From NCBI RefSeq assembly GCF_900114915.1, contig NZ_FOUS01000001.1:434001-498000 (forward strand): DNA of 64,000 nt, given 5' to 3'. Origin of the DNA: Bradyrhizobium sp. Rc3b. Lineage in GTDB: Bacteria > Pseudomonadota > Alphaproteobacteria > Rhizobiales > Xanthobacteraceae. This document shows, piece by piece, positions 4,282 to 53,192 of this stretch (within the stretch, counting starts at the first letter, position 1; each line of letters starts with the position of its first letter). Position numbers and translations under genes: made by a program. The notes under the pieces are model-generated. The model had not been told where the DNA came from, did no database searches, and worked only from the letters and a program-made list of their open reading frames with translations.

Positions 4282-4414
4282 TGGCCTGCTCCCGAAAGGA
4301 CGTTTGCTGGCTCTGAGCATTCGCTGGGAGGGATCGATTTCGCGAGCAGAATGATCGGTCATGTTCCGCCGCGGCCGGCCCGCGCAGGCCGCCGTGGGGC
4401 GCCCATGTGCGGTT

Positions 4415-4443
4415 TTGTGCTGGTTTGTCCGCCCTGCTAGAAT
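4415..4443 (+). promoter_or_regulatory. Possible sigma70-type promoter for the XRE regulator
   Basis: TTGTGC (4415-4420) and TAGAAT (4438-4443) are separated by 17 bases and end 24 bases before the regulator start. The match is to the general housekeeping consensus only. The same 186-base gap should hold the divergent promoter for the sortase target. Confidence 0.35.
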
Positions 4444-4467
4444 GGCCGTGCTGGAGCAGGGTTAGCG

Positions 4468-5238
4468 ATGCAGATTCAGGACAAATCCGCCGACAAGCAG
4501 CTTTCGGACGAGCAGAGCCGCGAGATCGCCGAGACCATTCGCGAGGAGCTCGCCAGACGCCGGATCTCCCGGCAGGCGCTGGCCGAGCAGGCCAAGCTCA
4601 GCCTGTCGACGCTGGAGAAGGTGCTCGGCGGCCGACGGCCGTTTACGCTGGCGACGACGGTCCGGCTGGAGCAGGCGCTGGGCGTCTCCTTGCGCAAGAG
4701 TCCCGTCGTGGCGGCGCCTCAGGCCGCCAACGATGTCGCTCCCGACAGTCTTGGCTCCTATGCGCATCGCGCCGTGACCTGGCTCGAGGACGTCTACATC
4801 ACGCTGCGGCCGTCGTTCGGCGACAAGGACGCGATCTTCGCGTACCGCACCGAGATCGTCTGGGAGCCGAAGGTGTCTTCGCTGGTCTTTCGGGAGGGCG
4901 ATCGCACCGATACCGCCTACGAGCATACCGGCGAGGTCGCCGTCCCGCATCAGTCAGGCTTCATCTACCTCGTCATCATCAAGCACGGCCAGCATCGCGT
5001 GATCACGGTGTCGCGGCCGACGGTCGCCGGCGAGATGTACGGCATCATCTCGACGCTCCGCGCCGGGCCTGGTTCACAGCTCACGCCGATCGCAGCGCCG
5101 ATCGCCTACGTACCGCTCCGGAACGTCCCGAAGCCGTCGCTGGGGAGGGTCGGGCCCGGCGACGCCAACCATGCGTTGTACGGAAAGCATCTGCGCCGCA
5201 CGGTGGAAGAATCCTTCGCACTGTTTCTGTCGGTATAG
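4468..5238 (+). CDS. XRE-family transcriptional regulator with unknown C-terminal domain
   Basis: The 256-residue protein starts at ATG 4468. Residues about 15-75 form a Cro/C1-type helix-turn-helix (ISRQALAEQAKLSLSTLEKV, then LGVSL). The C-terminal part, residues about 95-250, is a predicted beta-rich domain around WLEDVYITLRPSF and VAGEMYGIISTLR that I do not recognise; it could bind an effector. It is divergent from the VIT/VWA sortase-target gene, with 186 bases between the starts, so it may control that gene and itself. No operator could be identified with confidence. Confidence 0.8.
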   Translation: MQIQDKSADKQLSDEQSREIAETIREELARRRISRQALAEQAKLSLSTLEKVLGGRRPFTLATTVRLEQALGVSLRKSPVVAAPQAANDVAPDSLGSYAHRAVTWLEDVYITLRPSFGDKDAIFAYRTEIVWEPKVSSLVFREGDRTDTAYEHTGEVAVPHQSGFIYLVIIKHGQHRVITVSRPTVAGEMYGIISTLRAGPGSQLTPIAAPIAYVPLRNVPKPSLGRVGPGDANHALYGKHLRRTVEESFALFLSV

Positions 5239-5286
5239 TCCGCAAGAAAGAATCCGGAATGGCGTTGCTTGCGTCTATAAGGGGGT

Positions 5287-6777
5287 ATGCAGAACGCGCG
5301 CGCCCCATGCCTCGGCGAATCTCCGCTGTTCTCCATCATCATCCCGCTCGAATATCATCGCGGGCAATGGGAGCAGTCCTGGCTCGGCTGGACATCGCAG
5401 ACCGCGGACAAGTCGCTTTACGAAATCATCCTGGTCGTGCCACCGGATTTCAAGACGCGCGAGGCGTTGAAGGCGCTGGCCGGCGACGAGGCTCGCCTCG
5501 AGTTCACTGATTCCGAACACGATATCGGGCTGTGCGCATTCGGCGCAACCAAAGCCCGCGGCAGCTATCTGTTCTTCACCGAATCGCACTGCTGGCCCGC
5601 GCCCGATGTGATCGAGCTGTGCATCCGCGCCATCGAGGCTCATCCCGAGTGGGCCGGCTTTTCCTGCCATTCGGTTCCGATCTGCCACAATCGATTGTCC
5701 GTGGCGGAGGCTGCGATGTACCAGGCCGACATCGAGTTCGGCATGAAGCGGCATCCCTGGCGCAAAGTGCTTGATCAGTGCTTCGTGACGCGGCGCGACG
5801 TTTATTGGGAATGCGGCGGCCTGCGCGAGGAGCTCGGCCATTTCGCAGAATGGGTGCTGGCTGCGGCATATCACGCGAGAGGCCATGCCATTGGTTATCT
5901 GCAAGAGGCGCGCTTCCATCACTATTACATAGGCAAGATCGGCGAGCTGAAGACGTTCACGCTCGATTTCGTTCGGGGCGAGATCCGCTATCTCGGCGAG
6001 GCGCACCGTGATCCCGGTAGCGAGCTGCTGGAAGTGCCCACCGAGTGGAGCAAGCGCGACGATTTCGACACCGCGCTTGCGCGGAGTGCCCTCGGCGCAC
6101 GGATGCGATCCGCTCGAGTGAACGGCGAAAGCGTGCAGGCGCTCGGGCGCTGGGGCGTGATCGCGTTGGTCGGCGGCCGCTCTGCGCGCAGTTCAGCGCG
6201 CCTCTCCGCAGTCTATGCCCGCTGTGTGCTGACCATGCTCACCATGGGCGGCTCTCCCGACAGCATCGCGCGTTGGCTGAAGCGCTATATCGCCTCACTG
6301 ATTCACTTTCAGCGCCTCGATTGCATTCAGGGCGGCAGCGAGCCCGCTGGCACGAAGCTGTCGCGTCTCGGGGATGAGGTGATGGCGCAAGCCGGCTTCC
6401 ACGCGTGCGAGGTCTGGCAGGGCCACAGCTTTCGCTGGAGTGAGCCGGAAGCTGCCTTGCGGATCAAGGTGTCGCCCGGACGCAGCATCATCCGCATCGT
6501 ATCGCCCGAGATTCGCGAGCCTTTGGATCGGATCGGGGTAAGATTTTATCTCGACGGCATGCGGGTCGCCGATGCAGCGATCGCGATCGACGCCGGTGCT
6601 TTCGTCCTGCAACTCGATCGACCGTCATCAGGCACGGCGATACTGGCATGGACATGTCCGCGCTTTGCGGCCGCCGGCGACGATCGCCGGCTGGGTCTGC
6701 CGGTGGCGGAGATCCGCATGGCGGCGGGCGAAGGCGCGAGCTGCGCGCCATCGCCCACGGCCATCATGTGCAACTAA
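5287..6777 (+). CDS. Family 2-like glycosyltransferase with degenerate metal motif and C-terminal beta domain
   Basis: The 496-residue protein begins with a GT-A-like domain (FSIIIPLEYHRGQWEQSWLG) and a donor-site region (DIGLCAFGATKARGSYLFF). Where most GT2 enzymes have DxD, this one has ESH (FFTESHCWPAPD, about residues 97-108). Residues about 390-490 form a separate beta-rich domain ending DDRRLGLPVAEIRM, like the tail of the partial gene at 2-166. It probably acts in a surface polysaccharide pathway. The unusual motif means it may use a different metal arrangement or be non-catalytic. Its stop overlaps the convergent binding-protein gene by four bases. Confidence 0.75.
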   Translation: MQNARAPCLGESPLFSIIIPLEYHRGQWEQSWLGWTSQTADKSLYEIILVVPPDFKTREALKALAGDEARLEFTDSEHDIGLCAFGATKARGSYLFFTESHCWPAPDVIELCIRAIEAHPEWAGFSCHSVPICHNRLSVAEAAMYQADIEFGMKRHPWRKVLDQCFVTRRDVYWECGGLREELGHFAEWVLAAAYHARGHAIGYLQEARFHHYYIGKIGELKTFTLDFVRGEIRYLGEAHRDPGSELLEVPTEWSKRDDFDTALARSALGARMRSARVNGESVQALGRWGVIALVGGRSARSSARLSAVYARCVLTMLTMGGSPDSIARWLKRYIASLIHFQRLDCIQGGSEPAGTKLSRLGDEVMAQAGFHACEVWQGHSFRWSEPEAALRIKVSPGRSIIRIVSPEIREPLDRIGVRFYLDGMRVADAAIAIDAGAFVLQLDRPSSGTAILAWTCPRFAAAGDDRRLGLPVAEIRMAAGEGASCAPSPTAIMCN

Positions 6778-11148: not shown

Positions 11149-12311
<1,163 letters not shown>

Positions 12312-12312
<1 letters not shown>

Positions 12313-12968
12313 TGATCACGCTCTATCACTGCGACGCCGCGCGCTCGTTCCGCCCGCTCTGGATGCTGGAGGAGATGGGGCTGCCGTATGAGCTGAAGAT
12401 GCTGCCATTCCCGCCGCGGGTCTTCGCCAAGGAATATCTCGCGCTCAATCCGCTCGGCACGATTCCCTTCATGGTCGACGGCGAGACGAAGATGACCGAA
12501 TCCTCCGGCATCTGCCACTATCTCGGCATCGAGCATGGCCCGACGCCGCTGATGGTCGGGCCGGAAGATCCCGCCTATGGCGCGTTCCTGAACTGGATGT
12601 ATTTCAGCGACGCCACGTTAACCTTCCCGCAGACGCTGGTGCTCCGATACACCCAGCTCGAGCCGGAGGAGCGGCGCAATCCGCAGGTCGCCGGCGACTA
12701 TGCAAAATGGTTCCTGGGCCGGTTGCGCGCCGTCGAGGCCGCGACGGCCAATGCCGAAACATTGTGCGCCGGCCGCTTCACCGCCGCTGACATTGTCATC
12801 GGTTATGCGCTTCGGCTGGCCGACAACATCGGGCTTGCCAAGGATTTTGGGCCAAATGTCGCAGCCTATTGGGCCCGCCTGCAGCAGCGGGACGGTTTCA
12901 AGCGTGCGGTTGCTGCGGAACAGAAGGCTGGCGCCGAGCAGAATGTTGCACCGCGCGTGAGGGCGTAA
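12312..12968 (+). CDS. Glutathione S-transferase family protein
   Basis: The start is the ATG that overlaps the upstream stop by one base, giving 218 residues. The N-terminal thioredoxin-like domain (MITLYHCDAARSFRPLWMLE) includes the glutathione gamma-glutamyl motif ES in MTESSGICHYL and the cis-proline in LNPLGTIPFMV. A helical C-terminal domain has the usual FTAADIVIGYAL. It could conjugate glutathione to a reactive pathway intermediate or detoxify by-products. Coupling to an acyl-CoA dehydrogenase gene suggests a role in that catabolic pathway. The substrate is unknown. Confidence 0.88.
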
Positions 12969-12978
12969 GTTTTAGGTC

Positions 12979-13099
12979 GTCATTCCGGGGCGATGCGCAG
13001 CATCGACTATGGTGCGCCCTTGCGCAGCTGGGAATCTCGAGGTTCCCGGTGCCCAATTGCGCACCTGAGGTTCGGTCCTACGGACCGCCCCGGAACGAC
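12979..13099 (+). repeat. Intergenic palindrome, family B (divergent copy)
   Basis: The outer arms GTCATTCCGGGGCG and GCCCCGGAACGAC are inverted with one mismatch. The interior carries GCGCAATTGCGCA-like pieces (CCCAATTGCGCAC). It occupies the gap between the glutathione transferase and AraC-regulator genes and may form the transcript end. Confidence 0.75.
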
Positions 13100-13203
13100 G
13101 GCGCGTGTCTTTTGACAGCGCTATCCCGTCGTGACAGCGCCCAAATTTCCGCTAAGGTGACCTCCGTCCGCAGCGGCCAGAGAGCCGCGCGAGGAGGATC
13201 CCA

Positions 13204-14004
13204 ATGGAAGATAAAGGTCGCGAATCCGACCATCTGATGCTGATCACGCCGGAGCGGGTCTTCTATGCCGGCCTGCTCGGCCGCCCTCGCAAGCGGACCC
13301 CCGGCTGCTGCCATATCTACGTCGCGGTGAAGGGCAGCTTGCATCTGACGATCGACGACGTCCACACGTCGGACGAATTGATCGTGACCCTGCCGAACCA
13401 GCGGCATTCCATCGCCAGCGACTACCGCACTGCAATCAGCGTGACCCTCGAGCCGGAAAGCATGCCGGATGGCGTGATCGAGGCCTTGGCCGAGCGGCTG
13501 CGCGGGCCGGACAAGGCTCTCTATGCCCGCAAGATCCTCGCCGCCTACGCGCTGCTCCGCCAGCGCCGCTACGGCGACATCACCACCGCCGAGTTTGACG
13601 AGATGTGCTTTGGCGAGGCGCTCGCCCGCCGCGAGCTCGATCCGCGCGTGACCCGCGCCGTCGCCCGCATCGAGCGTTTCTCGGGCGAGCCGGTGACGGC
13701 CGACACCTGTGCGGCGGAAGCAGGGCTCTCGGCTTCGCGCTTCCTGCATCTGTTCAAGGAGGAGACCGGCATCTCGTTCCGCTCCTTCCGCGCCTGGAAG
13801 CGCGCACGGCATCTGCTGCACTTCGCCAACCAGGACCTCAACCTCGCCCATCTCGCGCAGGACATCGGCTATCCCGACTCCACGCATTTCAGCCATTCGA
13901 TCCGCCGCTTCTACGGATTGAAGCCGCGCGCGATCTTCGTCGGCTCGCGCGACCTTGCGATCTATCGCAGCACCGAGACGGTGAGGCTCGCGGAGGCGAG
14001 TTAG
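13204..14004 (+). CDS. AraC-family transcriptional regulator
   Basis: The 266-residue protein starts at ATG 13204 behind a strong GAGGAGGA site. The N-terminal half is a small cupin-like sensor region (HIYVAVKGSLHLTIDDVHTS). The C-terminal half has the two helix-turn-helix motifs of AraC/XylS proteins: AAEAGLSASRFLHLFKEE and LAQDIGYPDSTHFSHSIRRF. It probably controls the neighbouring acyl-CoA genes, being placed between the dehydrogenase/transferase set and the BKACE/carboxylase set. Its inducer is unknown. Confidence 0.9.
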   Translation: MEDKGRESDHLMLITPERVFYAGLLGRPRKRTPGCCHIYVAVKGSLHLTIDDVHTSDELIVTLPNQRHSIASDYRTAISVTLEPESMPDGVIEALAERLRGPDKALYARKILAAYALLRQRRYGDITTAEFDEMCFGEALARRELDPRVTRAVARIERFSGEPVTADTCAAEAGLSASRFLHLFKEETGISFRSFRAWKRARHLLHFANQDLNLAHLAQDIGYPDSTHFSHSIRRFYGLKPRAIFVGSRDLAIYRSTETVRLAEAS

Positions 14005-14013
14005 GCTCGCTCT

Positions 14014-14106
14014 CGTAGGGTGGGCAAAGGCGCTCTTGCGCCGTGCCCACCACCTCTCGGCAACTGGCAAAGATGGTGGGGCACGCTTCGCTTTGCCCAC
14101 CCTACG
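14014..14106 (+). repeat. Intergenic palindrome, family A
   Basis: CGTAGGGTGGGCAAA (14014-14028) is repeated as a perfect 15-bp inverted copy at 14092-14106. Inside lie GTGCCCACC and GGGGCACG arms, so the transcript can form a long branched hairpin. Other copies are at 18792-18883 and 60077-60169. Confidence 0.9.
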
Positions 14107-14204
14107 AATTCGTCGTGTTTTCCAGCTTCTCCGCGCAAGAAGCCGCATGCCACCCATCCCATGATCGCAAGCGTTGAATTCTCAACGTGCGAGATATCCA
14201 AGGC

Positions 14205-15071
14205 ATGAGCGACAAGGCCGTCATCACCTGCGCGCTGAACGGCGTGCTCACCGACCCCAAGCAGCACAATGTGCCCGTGACGCCCGAGCAGATGGCGCGC
14301 GAGGCCAAGGCTGCGTTCGACGCCGGTGCGTCCGTCATGCACATCCACCTGCGCCAGCAGGCGCCGGGCAAGGGACATCTGCCGTCCTGGGAGGTCGCCG
14401 TCAGCAAGGAGATCCAGCAGGCGATCCGTGAAGCCTGTCCCGGCGTGATCATCAATCACACCTCGGGAGTGTCAGGGCCGAACTACTCCGGCGCGCTCGA
14501 CTGCATCCGTGAGACCAGGCCGGAGATCGCCGCCTGCAACGCTGGCTCGCTGAATTATCTGAAGGTGAAGGCCGACAACACTTGGGCCTGGCCACCGATG
14601 ATGTTCGACAACGCGGTCGAGAAGGTGAAGGACTATCTCGACGTCATGAACGCGGTTGGCACCATCCCCGAGTTCGAATGTTTCGACGTCGGCATCGTCC
14701 GCTGCGTCGGTATGTACACCCAGGTCGGCATGTACAAGGGACCGCTCGAGTATAATTTTGTGATGGGCGTCGCTTCTGGAATGCCTTCGGATCCGGAGCT
14801 GCTGCCGATCCTGATCAAGCTGAAACGTCCCGAGGCGCATTTTCAGGTCACCGCGATCGGCCGCGAGGAGATCTGGCCGCTGCACCAGCGCTGCGCCGAG
14901 CTCGGTGGCCACCTGCGCACCGGTCTCGAGGACACCTTCTATCTCGCCGACGGCAAGAAGGTGACGTCGAACGGCCAGCTGATCGAGGCCGTCGCCGCCT
15001 GTGCCCGCCGTGCCGGCCGCGAGATCGCAAGCCCCGCCGAGGCGCGGAAGATCTTTGGGACGAATCGCTGA
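14205..15071 (+). CDS. Beta-keto acid cleavage enzyme (BKACE, DUF849 / Kce family)
   Basis: I choose ATG 14205, because family members begin KAVITCAxNG; a GTG at 14187 would add six residues and lacks a ribosome site. The 288-residue product is a TIM-barrel Zn enzyme with metal-site signatures MHIHLR and the Glu in RTGLEDTFY, plus IINHTSG. BKACE enzymes condense a beta-keto acid with acetyl-CoA and split it to acetoacetate and a new CoA thioester. Substrates in the family range from 3-keto-5-aminohexanoate to dehydrocarnitine and others. The next genes encode an acyl-CoA carboxylase, so the product may feed there. Confidence 0.88.
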   Translation: MSDKAVITCALNGVLTDPKQHNVPVTPEQMAREAKAAFDAGASVMHIHLRQQAPGKGHLPSWEVAVSKEIQQAIREACPGVIINHTSGVSGPNYSGALDCIRETRPEIAACNAGSLNYLKVKADNTWAWPPMMFDNAVEKVKDYLDVMNAVGTIPEFECFDVGIVRCVGMYTQVGMYKGPLEYNFVMGVASGMPSDPELLPILIKLKRPEAHFQVTAIGREEIWPLHQRCAELGGHLRTGLEDTFYLADGKKVTSNGQLIEAVAACARRAGREIASPAEARKIFGTNR

Positions 15072-15084
15072 ATGTAGCCCCAGC

Positions 15085-15170
15085 CGTCATTGCCAGCGAA
15101 GCGAAGCAATCCAGAGTGCATCCGCGGAAACAGACTGGATTGCTTCGTCGCTTCGCTCCTCGCAATGACG
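15085..15170 (+). repeat. Intergenic palindrome, family C
   Basis: CGTCATTGCCAGCGAAGCGA at the left end is mirrored by CGCTTCGCTCCTCGCAATGACG at the right with a small offset, and AATCCAG pairs with CTGGATT further in. It separates the BKACE and carboxyltransferase genes. It is the only copy of this family seen in the window. Confidence 0.75.
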
Positions 15171-15184
15171 GGTAGGATAGAGTC

Positions 15185-16801
15185 ATGTCCATTCTCGAAA
15201 ACACCATCTCCCCCGGCGGCGCCGCCTACCACGCCAACCGCGACGGCATGCTCGGCCTCATCGACCGCATGCGCGCGCTGGAAGAGCGCACCCGCGCGGC
15301 GTCGGCGGCGGCGAAGGATCGCTTTCACAAGCGCGGCCAACTGCTGCCGCGCGAGCGCGTCGCGCTGGTGCTAGATCCCGGTGCGCCTTTCATCGAGCTG
15401 TCGACGCTCGCCGGCTACATGTTCGATGTACCGGACGCGACCAAGAGCGTGCCCGGCGGCGGCGTCATCGCGGGCATCGGCTTCGTCTCGGGCATCCGCT
15501 GCATGGTCAGCGCCAGCGATTCCGGTATCGATGCCGGCGCGCTGCAGCCTTACGGCCTCGACAAGACGCTGCGGGTGCAGGAGCTCGCGTTGGAGAACAA
15601 GCTGCCCTATGTGCAACTGGTCGAAAGCGCCGGCGCCAACCTGTTGCGCTACCGCGTCGAGGACTTTGTCCGCGGCGGCAACATTTTTCGCAATCTGGCG
15701 CGGCTCTCTGCGGCAGGCCTGCCCGTCGTCACCGTCACGCACGGCTCCTCGACTGCCGGCGGCGCCTATCAGACGGGCCTCTCCGACTACATCGTCATGG
15801 TGCGCGGCCGCACGCGCGCCTTCCTCGCGGGGCCGCCGCTGCTGAAGGCCGCGACCGGCGAGATCGCTACGGAAGAAGAGCTCGGTGGCGCCGAGATGCA
15901 CACGCAAGTGTCCGGTCTCGGCGACTACCTCGCCGAGGACGACCGCGATGCCCTTCGCATCGCGCGCGAGATCATGGCGGCGCTGCAATGGGAACGGCCG
16001 GGCAGGACGGCGTCGGAATTCAAGCCGCCGCGCTATGACCAGGACGAGCTGCTCGGCATCATGCCGATGGACCACAAGCGCTCCGTCGACATGAAGCAGG
16101 TGATCGCACGTATCGTCGACGATTCCGATTTCACCGAGATGGCGCCGAATTACGGCCCCGCCACCGTCTGCGGCCACGCCCGCATCGAAGGACAGGCGAT
16201 CGGCATCATCACCAACAACGGGCCGCTCGATCCCGCCGGCGCCAACAAGGCGACGCATTTCATCCAGGCCTGCTGCCAGACCCGCACGCCAATCCTCTAT
16301 CTCAACAACACCACCGGCTACATGGTCGGCAAGGCCTATGAAGAAGCTGGCATGATCAAGCACGGCTCGAAGATGATCCAGGCGGTGACCTCGGCGACGG
16401 TGCCGCAGATCACCATCTATTGCGGCGCCTCGTTCGGCGCCGGCAATTACGGCATGTGCGGCCGCGGCTTCCATCCGCGCTTCTGCTTCTCCTGGCCGAA
16501 CGCCAAGACCGCGGTGATGGGCGGCGAGCAGGCCGCCGAGACCATGGCTATCGTGACGGAAGCGGCCGCCGCGAGGCGCGGGAAGCCGGTCGAAAAGGAC
16601 AAGCTCGATGCCATGAAGGCGCAGATCATCGGCGTGTTCGAGGGCCAGATGGATGTATTCTCGACCAGCGCGCGCGTGCTCGACGACGGGGTGATCGATC
16701 CGCGCGACACCCGCGCGGTGCTGTCCGAAGTGCTCGCGATCTGCCGCGAAGGCGACGCACGGACGCCGCAGCGCATGCAGTTCTCGGTGGCCCGCCCATG
16801 A
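15185..16801 (+). CDS. Acyl-CoA carboxylase, carboxyltransferase (beta) subunit
   Basis: The 538-residue protein has the two crotonase-like halves of biotin-dependent carboxyltransferases. The N half includes GVIAGIGFVSG. The C half includes YLNNTTGYMVGKAYEEAG, GASFGAGNYGMCGRGF and AVMGGEQAAETMA. The GAGNYGMCGR signature and length fit the methylcrotonyl-/geranyl-CoA carboxylase branch better than propionyl-CoA carboxylase, though I cannot assign the substrate. It transfers CO2 from biotin carried by the alpha subunit to an acyl-CoA. Its stop overlaps the alpha-subunit start by four bases (ATGA), so the two are coupled. Confidence 0.9.
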   Translation: MSILENTISPGGAAYHANRDGMLGLIDRMRALEERTRAASAAAKDRFHKRGQLLPRERVALVLDPGAPFIELSTLAGYMFDVPDATKSVPGGGVIAGIGFVSGIRCMVSASDSGIDAGALQPYGLDKTLRVQELALENKLPYVQLVESAGANLLRYRVEDFVRGGNIFRNLARLSAAGLPVVTVTHGSSTAGGAYQTGLSDYIVMVRGRTRAFLAGPPLLKAATGEIATEEELGGAEMHTQVSGLGDYLAEDDRDALRIAREIMAALQWERPGRTASEFKPPRYDQDELLGIMPMDHKRSVDMKQVIARIVDDSDFTEMAPNYGPATVCGHARIEGQAIGIITNNGPLDPAGANKATHFIQACCQTRTPILYLNNTTGYMVGKAYEEAGMIKHGSKMIQAVTSATVPQITIYCGASFGAGNYGMCGRGFHPRFCFSWPNAKTAVMGGEQAAETMAIVTEAAAARRGKPVEKDKLDAMKAQIIGVFEGQMDVFSTSARVLDDGVIDPRDTRAVLSEVLAICREGDARTPQRMQFSVARP

Positions 16802-46015: not shown

Positions 46016-46172
46016 GGCGGGAAAGTCCGGCGGTGGAACTGGCTTCGAGGATTCTACTACGTTTCGGGCCGGAAAGAGAAGTAATTCACTGGGCGGATCG
46101 CAAGTTTTGGAAGATTTTGCTTTGCAAGATCGAATCTCCGATTGGACGCGATGGCCGTCCCACAAGTTCAGT

Positions 46173-46302
46173 GTCGTCCCTGCGAATGCAGGGACCCATA
46201 ACCCTAGGGTGGAGTTTGGCGAAGACCAGCCGTTCGGTGCGCCTGCCGCCGCGATCGAGAGATCACGCGGTATGGGTCCCTGCGTTCGCAGGGACGAGAG
46301 CT
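46173..46302 (+). repeat. Intergenic palindrome, family D, overlapping the end of dsrE copy 1
   Basis: GTCGTCCCTGCGAATGCAGG and CCTGCGTTCGCAGGGACGAG are the outer arms, with ACCCATA and TATGGGT inside. Its right arm is translated as the last residues of the 46263-46790 protein. Confidence 0.85.
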
Positions 46303-46790
46303 GAGTGCGACGCGGGAGCGCAGCGCCCCCTCAGGGGCCTCACCACCGTATATCCATTCTCCGCCAGGAACAGGATCTGCCCGACGCCCACCTGCACCGG
46401 GGTCGCGGCCTGGATGAACTCCGGCCGCTTGCCGGTCTCGCGCTCGATCGTATCCACCGTGTTGAGGCAGATGTCGAAGCGCACGCCTTGCGCGATCAGG
46501 CTTTCGACCTGCTTGCGACGCTCGCTGCTGGACAACAGGAGATCGATGCCGGGGCCGAACGCCACCACTTCGATCGCGATCTTGTCGGGGTCGTACGCCT
46601 TCAGGAGATTATTGGCGACGCTGAGCACCAGCGCCTGCTTCCTGGCGTCGCCGTCGGAGAGTTGCAGCACGATCTTGTGCTCGGCGAACGGCTTGTCCTG
46701 CAGCGGTACCTGCTGCGCTGAGGCCGTTGGGATCGCGACCCGGACCAGCAGCGCCAGCATCAGCGCGCAAAAGATCGGACCCCGAATCAT
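46263..46790 (-). CDS. DsrE-family periplasmic protein, copy 1 (with repeat-derived C-terminal extension)
   Basis: The 175-residue protein has a Sec signal (MIRGPIFCALMLALLVRVAI, cleavage at ASAQQ) and a DsrE-like domain containing HKIVLQLSDGD and a single Cys in RFDICLNTVD. DsrE-type proteins carry sulfur during sulfur oxidation or reduction; the export signal puts this one in the periplasm with Sox proteins. The mature domain differs from the copy at 49456-49914 at about five positions, while the signal peptides have diverged. After GYTVVRP the stop used by the other copy is lost. The chain continues 23 residues into a family D repeat (ending LVPANAGTHTA). Confidence 0.85.
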   Translation of the reverse strand: MIRGPIFCALMLALLVRVAIPTASAQQVPLQDKPFAEHKIVLQLSDGDARKQALVLSVANNLLKAYDPDKIAIEVVAFGPGIDLLLSSSERRKQVESLIAQGVRFDICLNTVDTIERETGKRPEFIQAATPVQVGVGQILFLAENGYTVVRPLRGRCAPASHSALVPANAGTHTA

Positions 46791-46857
46791 CCCTGTCCCG
46801 CAATGCCTGGATTGTCCTCGACGCCCTTCAGCGTGACACCGGGGCCAAGCCGCTTCT
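46787..46857 (-). pseudogene. soxB: Remnant of the soxB 3' end
   Basis: Read on the minus strand, these bases encode KRLGPGVTLKGVEDNPGIA then GQG and a TGA that overlaps the dsrE copy 1 start. The intact SoxB at 49911-51662 ends ERLGSGVTLKGVEDNPGIA, GQG, in the same overlap. Upstream of about 46857 the similarity stops. The piece therefore shows that the soxB end and the dsrE gene were copied together as one block. Confidence 0.85.
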
Positions 46858-47007
46858 CGTCGGCTTATCAGGGTGGACCGGACGTGAGCGGACGGCCGGT
46901 GGCGATGGGGCGGGCTTGAAAAACGCTGTTAGCGGCGGCAATCTCGGCCTGATTGAGGCTTCGATCTGACGAATCTCGGCTTATGCCGACCGATGCGAGG
47001 ATCGACG

Positions 47008-49257
47008 ATGAAGCAGCGGCCGATAGTGTGGCTTGCCGTTGTTGCAGGCGTGGTCCTGGTGCTTGCTGTCGCCTGGGCCGCCATCCTCTGGACGCGCCCA
47101 GAGCCTATTCGCATCGCGTTCGCCAATTCGCTCTCTGGCCCGTCCGCCCCGATCGGGGCGGAAAGCCTGGTCGCTACGCAGCTTGCAATCGACGAGGTGA
47201 ACGCCAAGGGGGGTGTCAACGGACGGCTGATTGAGCTCGTTCTGTTCGACGACGCAAGCAATCCAGCTGTGGCGCGCGCGAATGCGCAGGCGATTGCCGA
47301 CAGCCCGTGCGTCGCTGTGCTCGGACATTATCTTAGCTCCGCGTCGCTCGCGGCGGCGCCGATATACAAGGATGCGCGGATACCGGCACTCACGGGAAGC
47401 TCGGCTGCCGACGATCTGACAAACAACAGTGAATATTATTTTCGTGCGCTGTCGCCGGTCTCCGTACAGGCGCGCTCGATCGCGGAACATCTGCGCGCCG
47501 TGATGAGGGAGCCAAAAGTCCGTCTCGTTCACACGCGCGATTCCTACGGCAAGAGTTTTGAGCATGGATTTGCGACGGCCTATCCGGCGGAGCAGTTGCG
47601 TGTGTTCGGACTGGACGTCGCAGCCGGTGAGATCGGATCGACGGATGAGGCGCTGGACGCTGCCGCGCAGGAGCCCGGGCCCGGTGTTATTGTCGTCGGC
47701 GCGGCAACCGATTTTAGCGCAGACATCGTCAAGGCGCTCCGCCGCCGCGGTATCAAGGGAATGATCATTGCATCCCAAGCCGCAGCCCGCGAAAGCTATT
47801 TGCAGAATTTCGCCAATGAGCCCGAGGAAAAAGCGCAGCCGGGTTTCTTCAGCGAGAATCTGTATGCTGCTTCCTCGCTGATGTTCGACAGTGCCGGCGT
47901 GGCAGCGCAGGTCTTTGCCGCCGACTACAAAGCGAAAGCGGGAACCTTGCCAAGCTGGGTTGCCGGCGGCTCGTATGACGCTGCGCGCCTGATGATCGAT
48001 GCGCTAAAACGAGCTGCCGTACATCCCCGGTTTATGGGGCAGGGAATTCAGAAACGATCCGACAGCAAGGTCGCAGATCGCGACCGTGTGCGCGTCGCGC
48101 TCGCCGCGATCAACGATCCGAAATCGGCGGTCGTCGGGCTGACTGGGCGGCTCTATTTCAACGCGAACCGCGACATTCCGCGCCCGATTCGACTGGGTTT
48201 CTTCCGTTACGGTTTGTTCGTCACTGCGCCGCTGCAACTCGTGCGCATCGATCAGCCCAAAGGAATCGATCTCGCCGCGGAACGAGAGAAGGGCCATGTC
48301 GTCACGTTCGGCGACCGACACTACTGGATTCAGCGCGTCGTTTATACCGGCATCGACATCATTCGCGTCAGCCGGGTCGACGTGAAGCAAAATTCGTTCA
48401 ACGTCGACTTCTATCTCTGGATGCGGTTCGCCGGAGACGATGAGGCGCAGACGCACGTCGAATTCCCGGCCCTGTTGGATCGCGGGGCGTTCGATCCGGC
48501 TCGGCCGATTCAGATTGGACAGGAAGACGGCCTGAGCTATCGGCTCTATCGAATCAACGGCGATTTCAAAGCCCGTTTCGATCTCCATGATTATCCGTTC
48601 GACACGCAGGAATTGCGTCTACGTTTCCAGAACACGGAGCAGCGGCGGGAACTCATCACCTATGTCATCGATCGGTTCGGCTTGCGCCTCGCCGGCGACG
48701 GAAGCTCGCGGGCCGAGGATGGGGCCTATTCCGGACTTCAGCTCTGGCGATTTCTCGGACTGAACTATTTCGTCGAATCTCAGTCCAGCGGATCGACGCT
48801 CGGAAAGGCGTCCTCGTTTGGTGCCGAGGCAATGACGGAATTCGCAGGCTTCGATGCGACCATCATGCTGCGCCGCAGCTCCGCCATCTACATGCTGAAG
48901 AACCTATTGCCGCTGTTTCTGCTCGTGCTCGTCGTGTTCGCGACCCTGTTCTTTCCCGAAACCATGTTTCGTGAACGCGTGACGATTCCAGTGACCTCGA
49001 TCCTGGCGAGCGCGGTGCTGCTCGTGACGGTCGCCAGCCAGGTCGGCGATGTCGGATACACGGTGGTCGTCGAAGAGATGTTCTACATTTTCTTCATACT
49101 ATGCCTGATGACGATATTGGCGGGCTACAAACATGAAAAACTTCGAGACGCCGGCCGAAAGCGCGCCGCTATTGTTTTGGATCACGCAGCGCGGATCATT
49201 TATGCCGGGACGGTACTCGCTGTAATCGTTGTGCTCTACCGGCGTTATGCCGTGTGA
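47008..49257 (+). CDS. Periplasmic-binding domain fused to a pentameric ligand-gated ion channel
   Basis: ATG 47008 follows GAGGA by six bases; 749 residues. Order: membrane anchor or signal (about 6-28); type I periplasmic-binding domain (about 33-400: IRIAFANSLSGPSAPIGAES, NAKGGVNGRLIEL); Cys-loop-type extracellular beta domain (about 430-620) with DLHDYPFDTQ at 525-534, the counterpart of the Cys-loop YPFD motif without the cysteines; then M1 (624-650), M2 (656-676), M3 (685-706) and M4 (728-748). M2 reads ERVTIPVTSILASAVLL, with Glu656 at -1', Thr at 2' and 6' and Leu666 at 9', a pattern linked to cation selectivity. The gene lies opposite to the flanking sox genes and seems richer in A/T-ending codons. 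Confidence 0.9.
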   Translation: MKQRPIVWLAVVAGVVLVLAVAWAAILWTRPEPIRIAFANSLSGPSAPIGAESLVATQLAIDEVNAKGGVNGRLIELVLFDDASNPAVARANAQAIADSPCVAVLGHYLSSASLAAAPIYKDARIPALTGSSAADDLTNNSEYYFRALSPVSVQARSIAEHLRAVMREPKVRLVHTRDSYGKSFEHGFATAYPAEQLRVFGLDVAAGEIGSTDEALDAAAQEPGPGVIVVGAATDFSADIVKALRRRGIKGMIIASQAAARESYLQNFANEPEEKAQPGFFSENLYAASSLMFDSAGVAAQVFAADYKAKAGTLPSWVAGGSYDAARLMIDALKRAAVHPRFMGQGIQKRSDSKVADRDRVRVALAAINDPKSAVVGLTGRLYFNANRDIPRPIRLGFFRYGLFVTAPLQLVRIDQPKGIDLAAEREKGHVVTFGDRHYWIQRVVYTGIDIIRVSRVDVKQNSFNVDFYLWMRFAGDDEAQTHVEFPALLDRGAFDPARPIQIGQEDGLSYRLYRINGDFKARFDLHDYPFDTQELRLRFQNTEQRRELITYVIDRFGLRLAGDGSSRAEDGAYSGLQLWRFLGLNYFVESQSSGSTLGKASSFGAEAMTEFAGFDATIMLRRSSAIYMLKNLLPLFLLVLVVFATLFFPETMFRERVTIPVTSILASAVLLVTVASQVGDVGYTVVVEEMFYIFFILCLMTILAGYKHEKLRDAGRKRAAIVLDHAARIIYAGTVLAVIVVLYRRYAV

Positions 49258-49455
49258 GGCAAGCGTGGATACCTCGCCGGGTCCGCCACACCTTCTTGAA
49301 ATTCGCAGCATGAGTCCGGATCTGGTCCTTGGCCGACATGACCAAGCGCGCCTCCTTTGTCTGTTTCCGACGGTCATGCGGACGTCGTCCGCCGGGCGGA
49401 TTGGGTACACGCCCTAGACAGGGACGACAGGGGAGTGTTCGGCGGGACGCCCCCC

Positions 49456-49914
49456 CTACGGCCGCACCAGCGTGTAGCCATTCTCCGCCAGGAAGAGGAT
49501 CTGCCCGACGCCCACCTGCACCGGCGTCGCCGCCTGGATGAACTCCGGCCGCTTGCCGGTCTCGCGCTCGATCGTATCCACCGTGTTGAGGCAGATGTCG
49601 AAGCGCACGCCTTGCGCGATCAGGCTTTCGACCTGCTTGCGGCGCTCGCTGCCGGACAGCAGGAGATCGACGCCGGGACCGAACGCGACGACCTCGATCG
49701 CGATCTTGTCGGGGTCGTAGGCCTTCAGGAGATTATTGGCGACGCTGAGCACCAGCGCCTGCTTCTTCGCATCACCGTCGGAAAGCTGCAGCACGATCTT
49801 GTGCTCGGCGAACGGCTTGTCCTGAAGCTGCACCTGCTGCGCCAAGGCTGGCAGGATCGCGGCCTGGACCAGCAGCGTCAGTAGCATCGCGCGAAACATT
49901 TGCGCCCGCATCAT
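49456..49914 (-). CDS. DsrE-family periplasmic protein, copy 2 (end of the sox operon)
   Basis: ATG 49912-49914 overlaps the soxB stop; 152 residues. A signal peptide (MMRAQMFRAMLLTLLVQAAI, then LPALAQQ) precedes the DsrE-like domain with HKIVLQLSDGD, FGPGVDLLL and the single Cys in RFDICLNTVD, ending GYTLVRP. It is probably a periplasmic sulfur carrier or Sox accessory protein, co-translated with SoxB. A near-identical mature domain is encoded again at 46263-46790. Only one cysteine is conserved, so it lacks the multi-Cys centre of cytoplasmic DsrEFH. Confidence 0.88.
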   Translation of the reverse strand: MMRAQMFRAMLLTLLVQAAILPALAQQVQLQDKPFAEHKIVLQLSDGDAKKQALVLSVANNLLKAYDPDKIAIEVVAFGPGVDLLLSGSERRKQVESLIAQGVRFDICLNTVDTIERETGKRPEFIQAATPVQVGVGQILFLAENGYTLVRP

Positions 49915-51662
49915 CCTTGTCCCGCAATGCCCGGATTGTCCTCGACGCCCTTCAGCGTCACGCCGGAGCCGAGCCGCTCCTGGAACATCCGGCCCGAGCG
50001 CAGATATTTGCCGACGACGTCCCACACCGGCGCGCCTTGCTGGCCGTTGACCGAAGCCCAGCCTGCGACCTTGTAGCGGTGGCTGGCGCTGAGCGCCTTG
50101 CCGCCATGGAGCTTCACTTCCGAGATGCGGCCGCCGATCGCGGCGGTCGGCGTGCAGGTGTAGCTGAGCCCGCCGGCACGCACCATGTCGCCGCCCTGCT
50201 GATAATAGGGATCGGCGTTGAAGAGATTGTCGCAGACGTCTTCCAGCACGTCCTTGATCTGGGCGCCTGTCATCTCCTGCACATAGGTCTCGGGATAGGT
50301 GATCGCCGTCTCCGTGAGCAGATCCTCCATGGTCAGCGCCTGGCCCGACAGCGCGGTGACGCCCCAGCGGAACCCCGGCGACAGCGCGATCTCGGCATCG
50401 AGCTCGGTGCGCAGCGCCGTGCAGATCAGCTCGTCGACGGGCCCGGAGAAATTGCCGCGCCGATAGAGCAGGCGGTCAGGCGTTGCGATCTTTGCCGACC
50501 AGTCGGTCACGTGCGGCGCGCGCAGCCGGCCGATCAGCTCGGCCATTCCGGGGTCGGGCTTCAGCAGCTCGGAATAAACAGGAAGCAGATGATAATGAAT
50601 GTCGCTGACCTTGCCCTTGTCGATCGCAAGATCGAGCACGGCCAGGAATTTTCCGTTGGAGCCGGCATTGGTGACGAGCGTGGTCCCGCCGGCGTTCTTC
50701 ACGGCAATCGGCTGCGGTACGGCGTCATGGGTATGGCCGCCGAGAATGACGTCGATGCCCGTGACGCGGCTTGCGAGCTTGAGGTCGACATCCATGCCGT
50801 TGTGCGACAGCAGGATGACGGCGTCGACCTTGTCGGTGCCGCGCAAGGCATCGACATGCTTCTGCAACTCCTCCTCGCGGATGCCGAAGGTCCAGTCCGG
50901 CGTGAACCGCTTGGGGTGCGCGATCGGCACGTAGGGGAAGGCCTGGCCGACGATCGCGACCCGGTGACCGCCGATCTCCTTGATCATCGAAGGCTTGAAC
51001 ACGCGTCCCGTGGCCTTGTCGAAGGCGGGAGCGTCGTTGAACGCGGCTTCCTCGGTCAGGAACACGTTCTGCGCCAGGAACTCGCCCTTGAAGCGCTCGA
51101 GATTGTCGCGCAGCGTCTGCTCGCCATAGGTGAATTCCCAATGCCCGGTCATCGCTTCGATGCCGAGCAGATTGGCGACCTCGACCATGTCGCGGCCCTG
51201 CATGACGTTGGCAAGCCCGGTGCCCTGCCAGAGATCGCCGCCGTCGACCAGCAGCGAACGCTTCTCGCCGACATCGCCACGCAAGCGATCGACCAGCGTC
51301 TTCAGATGGGCAAAGCCGCCGAGCTTGCCGAAGCGGCCTGCCGACTTCTCGAACTCGACGCAGGTGAAGGCATAGGCATCGGCGCTGTCGGGACGGATGC
51401 CGAAACGATCGAGAAAGGCGCGGCCGACCAGATGCGGTGGCCGCCCGGCCATCTCGCCGACGCCGATATTGATGCTGGGCTCGCGGAAATAAACCGGGTT
51501 GAGCTGCGCATGCGTGTCGGTGATGTGCAGGATGCGCGCGTTGCCGAAGCGCTCAAGGTCGTAAATGCTCGCGGACTCAGTGCCCCGCGCAAGCCGCGGC
51601 AGACTGAGCGATGCAGCGGCAAGGCCTGCGCTCTTCAGGAAATCGCGGCGGCGGATCGCCAT
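49911..51662 (-). CDS. soxB: SoxB, thiosulfohydrolase of the Sox system
   Basis: ATG 51660-51662 follows GGAG by eight bases; 583 residues. A Tat signal (RRRDFLKSAGLAAASLSLPR) exports a folded protein. The catalytic domain is a binuclear-metal 5'-nucleotidase-like phosphoesterase fold: ILHITDTHAQLNP, VDGGDLWQGTG, SHNGMDVD and ILGGHTHDAVP. It has the SoxB-type length and a C-terminal domain with DPYYQQGGDMVR. SoxB hydrolyses the sulfone group from SoxYZ-bound thiosulfate, releasing sulfate, and uses Mn2+. It follows soxK and its stop overlaps the dsrE start. Confidence 0.95.
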   Translation of the reverse strand: MAIRRRDFLKSAGLAAASLSLPRLARGTESASIYDLERFGNARILHITDTHAQLNPVYFREPSINIGVGEMAGRPPHLVGRAFLDRFGIRPDSADAYAFTCVEFEKSAGRFGKLGGFAHLKTLVDRLRGDVGEKRSLLVDGGDLWQGTGLANVMQGRDMVEVANLLGIEAMTGHWEFTYGEQTLRDNLERFKGEFLAQNVFLTEEAAFNDAPAFDKATGRVFKPSMIKEIGGHRVAIVGQAFPYVPIAHPKRFTPDWTFGIREEELQKHVDALRGTDKVDAVILLSHNGMDVDLKLASRVTGIDVILGGHTHDAVPQPIAVKNAGGTTLVTNAGSNGKFLAVLDLAIDKGKVSDIHYHLLPVYSELLKPDPGMAELIGRLRAPHVTDWSAKIATPDRLLYRRGNFSGPVDELICTALRTELDAEIALSPGFRWGVTALSGQALTMEDLLTETAITYPETYVQEMTGAQIKDVLEDVCDNLFNADPYYQQGGDMVRAGGLSYTCTPTAAIGGRISEVKLHGGKALSASHRYKVAGWASVNGQQGAPVWDVVGKYLRSGRMFQERLGSGVTLKGVEDNPGIAGQG

Positions 51663-51715
51663 ACCAAAATTCTCCGCGCCCTCAATGTCGCAAGACTGTT
51701 TCAGTTCAGGCCAGT

Positions 51716-52021
51716 CTAGCGGATTTCCATCGCCTTCCAGGCTTCTTTTTCGGACGCCGCCTGGAAGATCGACGCCTTTGCCAGCGCCTCGGCCTCCCTG
51801 GCCGCGGCGGTGGCGCGGTCGAAATCGCCGCCATCCGCCGCTTTCTTGGCCGCGGCCAGGGTCGAGACGGTCACGGTCCACTGGTTGCGCAAGCCGGCAG
51901 CCTCCTTCGATGCGGCTTCCGCGGTGGCATAGGCCGCCTTGTAGTCCGCTTCATTTGCCGCGCGCGCCGCGGTCGCGAGGCCGAACGCCAGCAGCATGGC
52001 GAGGGGAAGTGACCGCTTCAT
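51716..52021 (-). CDS. soxK: SoxK-like, SoxXA-binding small periplasmic protein
   Basis: ATG 52019-52021 overlaps the soxA stop by four bases. The 101-residue product has a Sec signal (MKRSLPLAMLLAFGLATAAR, cleavage near ARAAN). A short mature part rich in Ala, Lys and Glu with helical heptads (NEADYKAAYATAEAASKEAA) follows. Size, export signal and place between soxA and soxB match SoxK, a small subunit that binds the SoxXA cytochrome. The assignment rests mostly on position and composition. Confidence 0.75.
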   Translation of the reverse strand: MKRSLPLAMLLAFGLATAARAANEADYKAAYATAEAASKEAAGLRNQWTVTVSTLAAAKKAADGGDFDRATAAAREAEALAKASIFQAASEKEAWKAMEIR

Positions 52022-52881
52022 GGCCGCGCTCCCGGTCCTGATATCGGCAGGCCGTTGGCGACATAGGACAGGAAATATTCGACGTCGCGATATTCGTCCG
52101 ATTGCGGCTCCAGCGGAACCGCGCGGGTCTGGCTGTTGCAGGTGACGAAGCGGCGGCTGGTGGTGCCCATGCCGCTCCATTCGGAGCGGTAGATCGGCAT
52201 CGCGTTCAAAATGCCGAGCGCCGGCGCCAGGACCTCGGCGCGGATGCGCTCGCCCGGGCTCTGCACATGGCAGCTGGCGCAGGAGAAATTCATCTGGCCG
52301 CGCCGCGTATAGAAGTAGCGCTTGCCGTTCTCGAATGCCGCGAGCGCACGGGGATCGTCGGGAATCTTGATGTCCATCGGCTTGCCGCGCGAGGTGAAGG
52401 CCATGTAGGCGGTGAGCGAGGCCATCTCGTCCTTGACGTAGGAGTAGGGCGCCTCGCCATTGGCCTCGCGGCAGCGGTTGAGCGCGAGCTCCAGCGTGAC
52501 GACCTTGCCTTCCTTCTCGTCGAAGTAGGGATAGTTCTGGCGGATGCCGACGCCCCCATTGGGGAAGCAATCGGCATAGGTCTTGCCGTTCTTGAACGGG
52601 GTGGCGAACATCTCCTTGCCGGCGTCGAGCGCGAACTCGTAAGGCGGGAATTCTTCCTTCTCCTGCCACTGCCGCTTCATGTCCGCGTTCATGGAATACG
52701 GACCGTTGACGAAGTCCTCGTGCTTTACGTCGGGAAACTTCTGGAAGAAGAAGTTCTGGAACGCCTTGGCGTCGGCAACGGGATCGACCTTGTCGGCCGC
52801 GACGACGCGCGGAGAGGTGAGGGCGAACGCAACGAGTGCGGCGCTGAGCGAGCCAAGCAGCAATGCAGACCGGGTCTTCAT
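52018..52881 (-). CDS. soxA: SoxA, mono-haem c-type cytochrome subunit of SoxXA
   Basis: ATG 52879-52881 shares one base with the soxZ stop; 287 residues. A Sec signal (cleavage near VVAAD) precedes a protein with one haem-binding motif, CASCH at 201-205. The likely axial Cys248 lies in FVTCNSQTRAVP; in SoxA this Cys becomes a persulfide ligand. Cys105 and Cys137 stand where di-haem SoxA proteins carry the first haem, so a disulfide is likely there. SoxXA couples thiosulfate oxidatively to the SoxY cysteine. Confidence 0.95.
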   Translation of the reverse strand: MKTRSALLLGSLSAALVAFALTSPRVVAADKVDPVADAKAFQNFFFQKFPDVKHEDFVNGPYSMNADMKRQWQEKEEFPPYEFALDAGKEMFATPFKNGKTYADCFPNGGVGIRQNYPYFDEKEGKVVTLELALNRCREANGEAPYSYVKDEMASLTAYMAFTSRGKPMDIKIPDDPRALAAFENGKRYFYTRRGQMNFSCASCHVQSPGERIRAEVLAPALGILNAMPIYRSEWSGMGTTSRRFVTCNSQTRAVPLEPQSDEYRDVEYFLSYVANGLPISGPGARP

Positions 52882-53192
52882 CACGCGATCTTCGCGGTGG
52901 TCGTATCCGACGCACCCTTGTTGTCGGTCCAGGAGATCTTGAGGTCGTCGCCCTTCTTGGCGCCCTTGAAGCTGAACTTCACATAGGGGTCCTTGGAGAC
53001 CGCAGTGCCCCAATCGGCGACGAAGACGTCCTTGCCGTTACATTCGAATTTCAGCTGCTGGATGTAGTGCGCGGGGATCAGCTCCCCCTTGGGATCCTTG
53101 ACCAGGCCGGTATCCATGGGGTGCTGGATCAGCGCCTGCACCTCGGTGATGTCGCCGTTGGATGTTGCGCGCACGCGAATGCTTGATGCCAT
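52881..53192 (-). CDS. soxZ: SoxZ, sulfur carrier subunit
   Basis: The 103-residue protein (MASSIRVRATSNGDITEVQA, then LIQHPMDTGL) is an immunoglobulin-like beta sandwich with no signal peptide. SoxZ pairs with SoxY and is exported with it through SoxY's Tat signal. Motif HPMDTGL and the length are typical. It lies 13 bases downstream of soxY and shares one base with soxA. Confidence 0.95.
   Translation of the reverse strand: MASSIRVRATSNGDITEVQALIQHPMDTGLVKDPKGELIPAHYIQQLKFECNGKDVFVADWGTAVSKDPYVKFSFKGAKKGDDLKISWTDNKGASDTTTAKIA

Follow-up and report, generated by a model that had tools for sequence, protein, structure and literature searches.

A stretch of 64,000 nucleotides from Bradyrhizobium sp. 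Rc3b, hereafter the window, encodes a protein that is likely, with a probability of about two in three (0.68), to be a ligand-gated cation channel, in which a type I periplasmic-binding (PBP-I) domain and a Cys-loop-type extracellular domain sit on a pore of the Cys-loop type. A channel type of synaptic signalling would here form, in soil bacteria, the lower half of a binding-protein sensor.

Binding domain and channel in one chain

The gene is open over 749 codons (47008-49257, + strand) in the window DNA and gives a single intact chain; an in-frame ATG 15 nt upstream of 47008 is an alternative start, which would yield 754 aa. From the N-terminus, the chain carries a helix, the PBP-I domain, the Cys-loop-type extracellular domain and four membrane helices:

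47008..49257, + strand: complete channel-fusion gene (open frame of 749 aa, domain matches, purifying selection over 21 copies)
47017..47091, + strand: N-terminal hydrophobic helix, residues 4-28 (helix in the predicted model)
47104..48240, + strand: type I periplasmic-binding domain, residues 33-411
48241..48879, + strand: Cys-loop-type extracellular beta-sandwich, residues 412-624 (profile matches to solved Cys-loop receptors; hhalign)
48577..48609, + strand: Pro-loop FDLHDYPFDTQ, residues 524-534 (42-row alignment)
48880..49251, + strand: transmembrane helices M1-M4, residues 625-748 (profile matches and predicted model)
48973..49005, + strand: pore-lining part of M2, residues 656-666, from E -1' to L 9' (42-row alignment)

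The N-terminal helix of the model would serve as a signal or a membrane anchor. Behind it, a two-lobe fold and a PF13458 match are both present, as expected of the PBP-I family; Peripla_BP_6 covers residues 33-336 with an E-value of 7e-40, and a structure search with the predicted model finds the fold to be LivJ/LivK-like. The channel half is recognized by the NCBIfam models LIC (1.5e-8) and LGIC_1 (2e-6), both under their curated cut-offs. Pfam channel models gave no match to the window protein at E <= 0.01, and PF02931 gave none across the whole genome of the strain, the controls being silent as well. Since these models hardly see the pore half, such a protein is easily mistaken for the binding protein of an ABC transporter.

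A profile built from a 42-row family alignment reached solved Cys-loop receptors in the PDB: GABA-A delta (7qn5_E, 6.4e-11 over profile positions 507-721), GluCl (3rhw, 1.7e-10) and an engineered delta construct (9sl1_E, 2.7e-12). The profile check on type I PBP and pLGIC families that a preliminary description of this DNA had proposed thus finds both, and the fusion in one 749-residue chain which it had read from the letters is borne out by the open frame, the profile matches and the predicted model. With hhalign, the Cys-loop-type domain aligned to the extracellular domains (ECDs) of six stand-alone bacterial channels with a probability of 97.8, and the fusion pore to their pores with a probability of 21. 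The predicted model displays a two-lobed binding domain, a beta-sandwich with strands up to residue 623, then four long helices (625-646, 651-678, 684-714 and 718-748). The fold of the pore half rests on the sequence profiles and on the secondary structure of this whole-chain model; among the matches listed, whole-chain structure searches returned only periplasmic-binding proteins and receptors with PBP-type domains. Three features of Cys-loop family membership are present: significant similarity to known members in the sequence of ECD and pore, the Pro-loop with its conserved Pro and Asp, and a beta-sandwich followed by four helices. Moreover, P635 in M1 is invariant in the family alignment.

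In the Pro-loop, Y529, P530, F531, D532 and Q534 are invariant in all 42 rows. The M2 residues listed in the preliminary description are found in this alignment as E656 (-1'), T659 (2'), T663 (6') and L666 (9'), under a primed numbering which we take from alignment to nicotinic and GLIC M2. E656, T663 and L666 are the same in 42 of 42 rows, position 659 is T in 36 and N in 6, and R657 (0') is R in 39 and Q in 3. The combination E(-1')..T(2')..T(6')..L(9') is a nicotinic-like M2 pattern, Glu -1' being the cation filter in nicotinic receptors and GLIC. A pore motif of the cation-selective kind is thereby supported by analogy; of the cation channel suggested earlier, the motif with its invariant glutamate stands, and the selectivity itself would follow from this reading of Glu -1'. 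The 42-row alignment (A4) and another of 49 rows (A7) are hand-picked subsets of the listed relatives, and A4 does not include P0098 and P0121, two proteins with an apparent frame disturbance of the C-terminal half in A3. In the search set YPFD is absent from 9 of 140 proteins, several of the 140 being fragments or frame-disturbed. Distant channel fusions break the motif (YPAD in L087, FPLD in L100); L097 and L098 keep YPFD together with a quite different M2.

As to the ligand, LivJ Glu226 holds the alpha-ammonium group of amino acids. The position aligned to it by hand, residue 257 of the window protein, is acidic in none of the 42 rows, which makes an ordinary alpha-amino acid less likely than another small solute; the Ser aligned to LivJ Ser79 is conserved (S in 37 rows, T in 3). 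The ligand would thus probably be a small molecule other than an ordinary alpha-amino acid. The missing acidic residue lowers the case for an amino-acid binder and leaves the PBP-I fold untouched, so that of the amino-acid-related solute considered earlier it is the LivJ/LivK-like fold that survives. From LivJ/LivK-type binding proteins of ABC importers, the window domain differs by this substitution and by its tethering to a channel.

The same outer domains on an MscS pore

A class-level search gave 6 of 385 genomes, our strain included, with one further channel fusion (L087) and four other loci that match the binding domain and the Cys-loop-type domain only. These four have frames of 1036-1179 residues with an MscS pore at the end (PF00924 in L089/L094, L090/L095, L092 and L093). 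At the order level, four more channel-type genomes were found (5 of 397, our strain included), and G851 among these matches from model position 201 on. A profile search at E <= 1e-3 then gave 325 relatives, and all 120 of those listed have PF13458 together with PF00924; the names given for a few of them are, among others, Azospirillum, Paramagnetospirillum, Magnetococcales, Gammaproteobacteria and one Actinomycetota assembly. In the genome of our strain, the MscS-family profile finds only the channel gene and stand-alone binding proteins at E <= 1e-20, so that an MscS version is absent at this threshold.

To our knowledge, known MscS proteins carry no Cys-loop-type extracellular domain. Among the matches listed, the titles and abstract beginnings of openly licensed papers report no such domain on an MscS pore. 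The YPFD coupling motif is absent from the MscS-type relatives, whereas it is kept with the Cys-loop-type pore; their middle domain aligns to the six stand-alone bacterial ECDs with an hhalign probability of only 80.8%, over 87 columns. This presence with one pore and absence with the other constitutes a natural experiment on the coupling of Cys-loop ECD to pore, and the role of the Pro-loop becomes testable by comparing two natural families.

Some MscS-type loci display further peculiarities. The L092 protein (2493-6032, - strand; 1179 residues) adds to PBP, Cys-loop-type domain and MscS pore a C-terminal cyclic-nucleotide-binding domain, and is predicted to be a channel with sensors on either side of the membrane. 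Large surface proteins are encoded directly beside the PBP/Cys-loop/MscS gene in L093 (21-7952, + strand; a putative one of 2643 aa) and L095 (11103-14363, - strand), the latter with cadherin-like, Ig-like and laminin-G domains.

Trees bear on the order of the exchange. The first ones comprised 21 of the 42 rows of A4 and 27 of the 49 of A7, with 16 proteins from one genome as outgroup of the PBP tree; later ECD trees comprised 15 rows of A4, 27 of A7 and three or four additional loci. Rooted on stand-alone bacterial ECDs, the ECD tree places the MscS-type domains next to L097/L098, inside the channel-type group (98/89). This suggests replacement of a channel pore by an MscS pore, a tree in which the channel-type ECDs form one clade of their own not being rejected (AU p 0.119). 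In the PBP tree L092 groups with channel-type rows (95 SH-aLRT), a grouping absent from the ECD tree. Binding domains of both pore families form one group against the 16 stand-alone proteins of our genome (96 SH-aLRT), so the outer pair was probably joined once. The odds appear somewhat better than even that PBP and Cys-loop domain are a portable sensing cassette placed on two unrelated pores, which would imply ligand-gated MscS channels and, if the symmetries are the usual ones, both five-fold and seven-fold assemblies. The MscS-pore relatives suggest ligand control of MscS-type pores; if true, evolution would here have set a domain of the neurotransmitter-receptor type on a mechanosensitive channel.

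A gene found at many sites

Within Bradyrhizobium, the channel is present in 23 of 265 genomes, our strain included: 20 carry it full-length, one (G039) with a frame change near the N-terminus, and two as remnants. The remnant of G051 (L079) has an internal deletion and occupies the same site as the full copy in L009, and that of G213 (L078) is a degraded 3' part with about 58-68% identity. Since most genomes of the genus are without it, the gene is dispensable. The surroundings in the window are as follows:

46895..49351, no strand assigned: stretch shared with copies at other sites, about 2.4 kb (blastn boundaries, ends ragged)
46263..46790, - strand: left copy of hypX, a small sox-cluster gene, within a segmental duplication of about 690 nt (46172-46857)
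49456..49914, - strand: right hypX copy, immediately following soxB, an order also seen in channel-free relatives
49911..51881, - strand: soxB, a neighbour outside the channel unit (TIGR04486, 815 bits, cut-off 550)

The shared stretch consists of about 113 nt upstream, the gene and about 95 nt downstream, with no second gene recognised. Of the 22 aligned full-length rows, two of which (L013 and L080) represent a single genome, 15 have 46895 as the left limit of similarity; the right limit lies between 49259 and 49351. In some groups of loci the shared sequence continues for up to 483 nt to the left of this, so that 46895 is not the end of an element. Directly beside the gene a common site is found for only five loci; in other pairs the common sequence does not exceed 483 nt on the upstream and 200 nt on the downstream side, which places the 22 copies, window included, at 18 positions. 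In wider flanks of up to 9 kb, L009 and L011 lie near the same AhpC/TSA-type gene, and L010 and L077 near the same LTXXQ-type gene, each time on opposite sides of the channel; on the strictest count, the 18 positions may therefore be 16 neighbourhoods.

A transposon or cassette with defined ends was considered and rejected, no terminal repeat being recognised at aligned ends read by eye. The 34 neighbouring ORFs scanned are of many kinds. Among the families listed, IS110-type transposase domains occur in at least 2 of the 34 and Y2/IS91-type domains in one or two, too few for a carrier to be named. Many copies (e.g. L009, L072) have more upstream sequence in common than the window has, reaching 130-480 nt from the start codon compared with 113 in the window; part of this left flank, read by hand, has no interruption on the opposite strand and may be the leftover of a former neighbour gene. 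Beside one copy, L076 encodes a SAM-domain, adenylate/guanylate-cyclase and AAA protein (12236-15739, + strand), relatives of which lie near the copies in L077 and L079.

Transfer, already suspected in the preliminary description, is substantiated for some of the copies by comparison with the neighbouring chromosomal gene FtsX. Channel identity exceeds that of FtsX in G263 (97 vs 91%), G064 (93 vs 75%) and G065 (about 84-85 vs 73%). The two values are alike elsewhere (91 and 92% in G251, 89 and 92% in G212), hence transfer is not established for each copy. The closest genome by FtsX among 23 others compared, G088 (98%), is devoid of the channel. The low GC3 and the many sites point the same way. 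The more AT-rich codons noticed earlier are indeed observed: GC3 is 0.70 in the channel gene and 0.81-0.91 in most neighbours, apart from soxX at 0.73 and the S9 peptidase at 0.76, and the frame 51716-52915 (GC3 0.54), which is not the soxA frame, was left out of this comparison. The gene thus appears, from these alignments, to travel alone and to pass between species without a recognised mobility gene of its own. It is under purifying selection where present: the 21 copies measured are all open, with a median dN/dS of 0.25 over 210 pairs and constraint in all domains.

In the window, SoxB, SoxA, SoxZ, SoxY and SoxX are all encoded beside the channel gene, which lies between soxB/hypX and a gene for an MBL-rhodanese protein. 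Its placement inside a sox locus, as first described, is correct as a position and fails as a conserved neighbourhood. The survey of other genomes proposed at that time found the fusion again, and no sox gene in the flanks of any of the 21 further Bradyrhizobium copies that are complete or almost so (14 loci and 7 further genomes; flanks of 8 to 10 kb, shorter at contig ends in L003, L004, L009, L010 and L012). Whether or not the channel is present, soxB scores above its cut-off in nearly every genome of the genus (255 of 265), and its co-occurrence with the channel is therefore no test of a link. The same sox locus (soxB, hypX, MBL-rhodanese gene) exists without the channel in G088, G008 and G031, genomes with no channel match. 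The channel as a sox-cluster gene was rejected on these grounds.

The channel gene is flanked by two hypX copies with 93% identity over 300 nt, indicating that the insertion came with a segmental duplication. The right copy, running on into soxB, is 92% identical to G088 and the left one 85%; hypX lies behind soxB in related genomes too. NCBIfam models do not match hypX at E <= 0.01, nor do Pfam models match the left copy at E <= 1. The end of soxB together with hypX is directly duplicated on either side (46172-46857 and 49396-49914), and short interspersed repeats (GTCGTCCCTGCG...CAGGGAC) lie around the insertion (46173-46313, 44563, 44692 and 49410 of the window), one pair forming an inverted repeat with 27-nt arms. 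The position beside the sox genes looks like that of an insertion and says nothing about the ligand.

Mechanism, alternatives and known systems

In the ligand-gated channel that we favour, five subunits would assemble, the predictions covering single chains. A periplasmic solute would bind and close the binding domain, and this closure would move the beta-sandwich, then the Pro-loop and finally the M2 pore. In the MscS-pore relatives, movement of the sensor would act on the MscS pore by another contact. The outer PBP/Cys-loop pair is best read as one portable sensor.

Alternatively, the PBP could have an accessory role, raising the local ligand concentration, presenting the ligand or only tuning the kinetics, the true agonist (a small molecule, a proton or calcium) acting in the Cys-loop domain. 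An accessory role is what PMC549065, in its available part, proposes for such fusions, and the calcium-sensitive channel DeCLIC is modulated by its own, unrelated N-terminal domain (available parts of PMC12664993 and PMC9897478). Yet the two outer domains remain joined on the MscS pore as well, a pattern that suits a single sensor better than two separate ones; modulation being still compatible with this, we regard the accessory role as unlikely, though a serious competitor.

A functionless passenger, drifting, carried by recombination and heading to decay, would account for the patchy occurrence (23 of 265 genomes, with two remnants and one frame change) of a gene found alone at many sites. 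The dN/dS of 0.25 over 21 copies, with every domain constrained, and the residues of pore and Pro-loop that stay invariant even at 41% identity argue against it and make it very improbable. Still less probable is a channel that senses a sulfur compound as a functional part of the sox cluster. It is suggested by the place of the gene between soxB/hypX and the MBL-rhodanese gene, and a sulfate-permease family protein occurs in at least 1 of the 34 flanking ORFs of other loci. Opposed to it are the 21 copies without a sox gene in their examined flanks, the three channel-free sox loci and the tie of the insertion to the duplicated hypX segment. As a conserved link, the relation to sulfur metabolism first proposed is largely refuted, which removes the sulfur-sensing story for the window gene.

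GLIC, ELIC, sTeLIC, nicotinic and GABA-A receptors share with the window protein a Cys-loop-type domain with its Pro-loop and four helices, but have no PBP-I domain. PBP-I domains do occur in ionotropic and metabotropic glutamate receptors, whose pores are of another kind or absent. DeCLIC (PDB 6v4a and others) is a bacterial pentameric channel with, like the window protein, an extra N-terminal part before the Cys-loop-type domain, and the two match in sequence in the pore (residues 613-747, 4.9e-5). This part consists in DeCLIC of two jelly-roll lobes and not of a PBP (available part of PMC9897478). The accessible text of PMC12664993 and PMC9897478 calls DeCLIC the only member with an N-terminal domain that has been studied or solved, and PMC4795631, as far as available, sets terminal domains aside. 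A literature search that joined Bradyrhizobium with pentameric ligand-gated channels gave a single paper, which by title and abstract is on fungal lipids.

The architecture of the window protein is already known since 2004, when PMC549065 (in its available part) described channels with an N-terminal PBP-I domain in Magnetospirillum magnetotacticum and Bradyrhizobium japonicum, the latter of the same genus as our strain, and proposed a role in chemotaxis. The preliminary statement that few such proteins have been studied agrees with this literature, where B. japonicum is among those reported. The three parts of these PBP-I/ART-LGIC fusions, PBP-I, ligand-binding domain and four-helix pore, are present in one chain and in the same order in the window protein. 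The wandering gene and the MscS-pore version, not mentioned in the available part of that paper, both come from the present analysis. Compared with MscS channels, the relatives L092-L095, unlike the window protein, carry the MscS beta-domain PF00924 behind the outer pair. The two-pore family is a variant of the known PBP-I/channel fusion.
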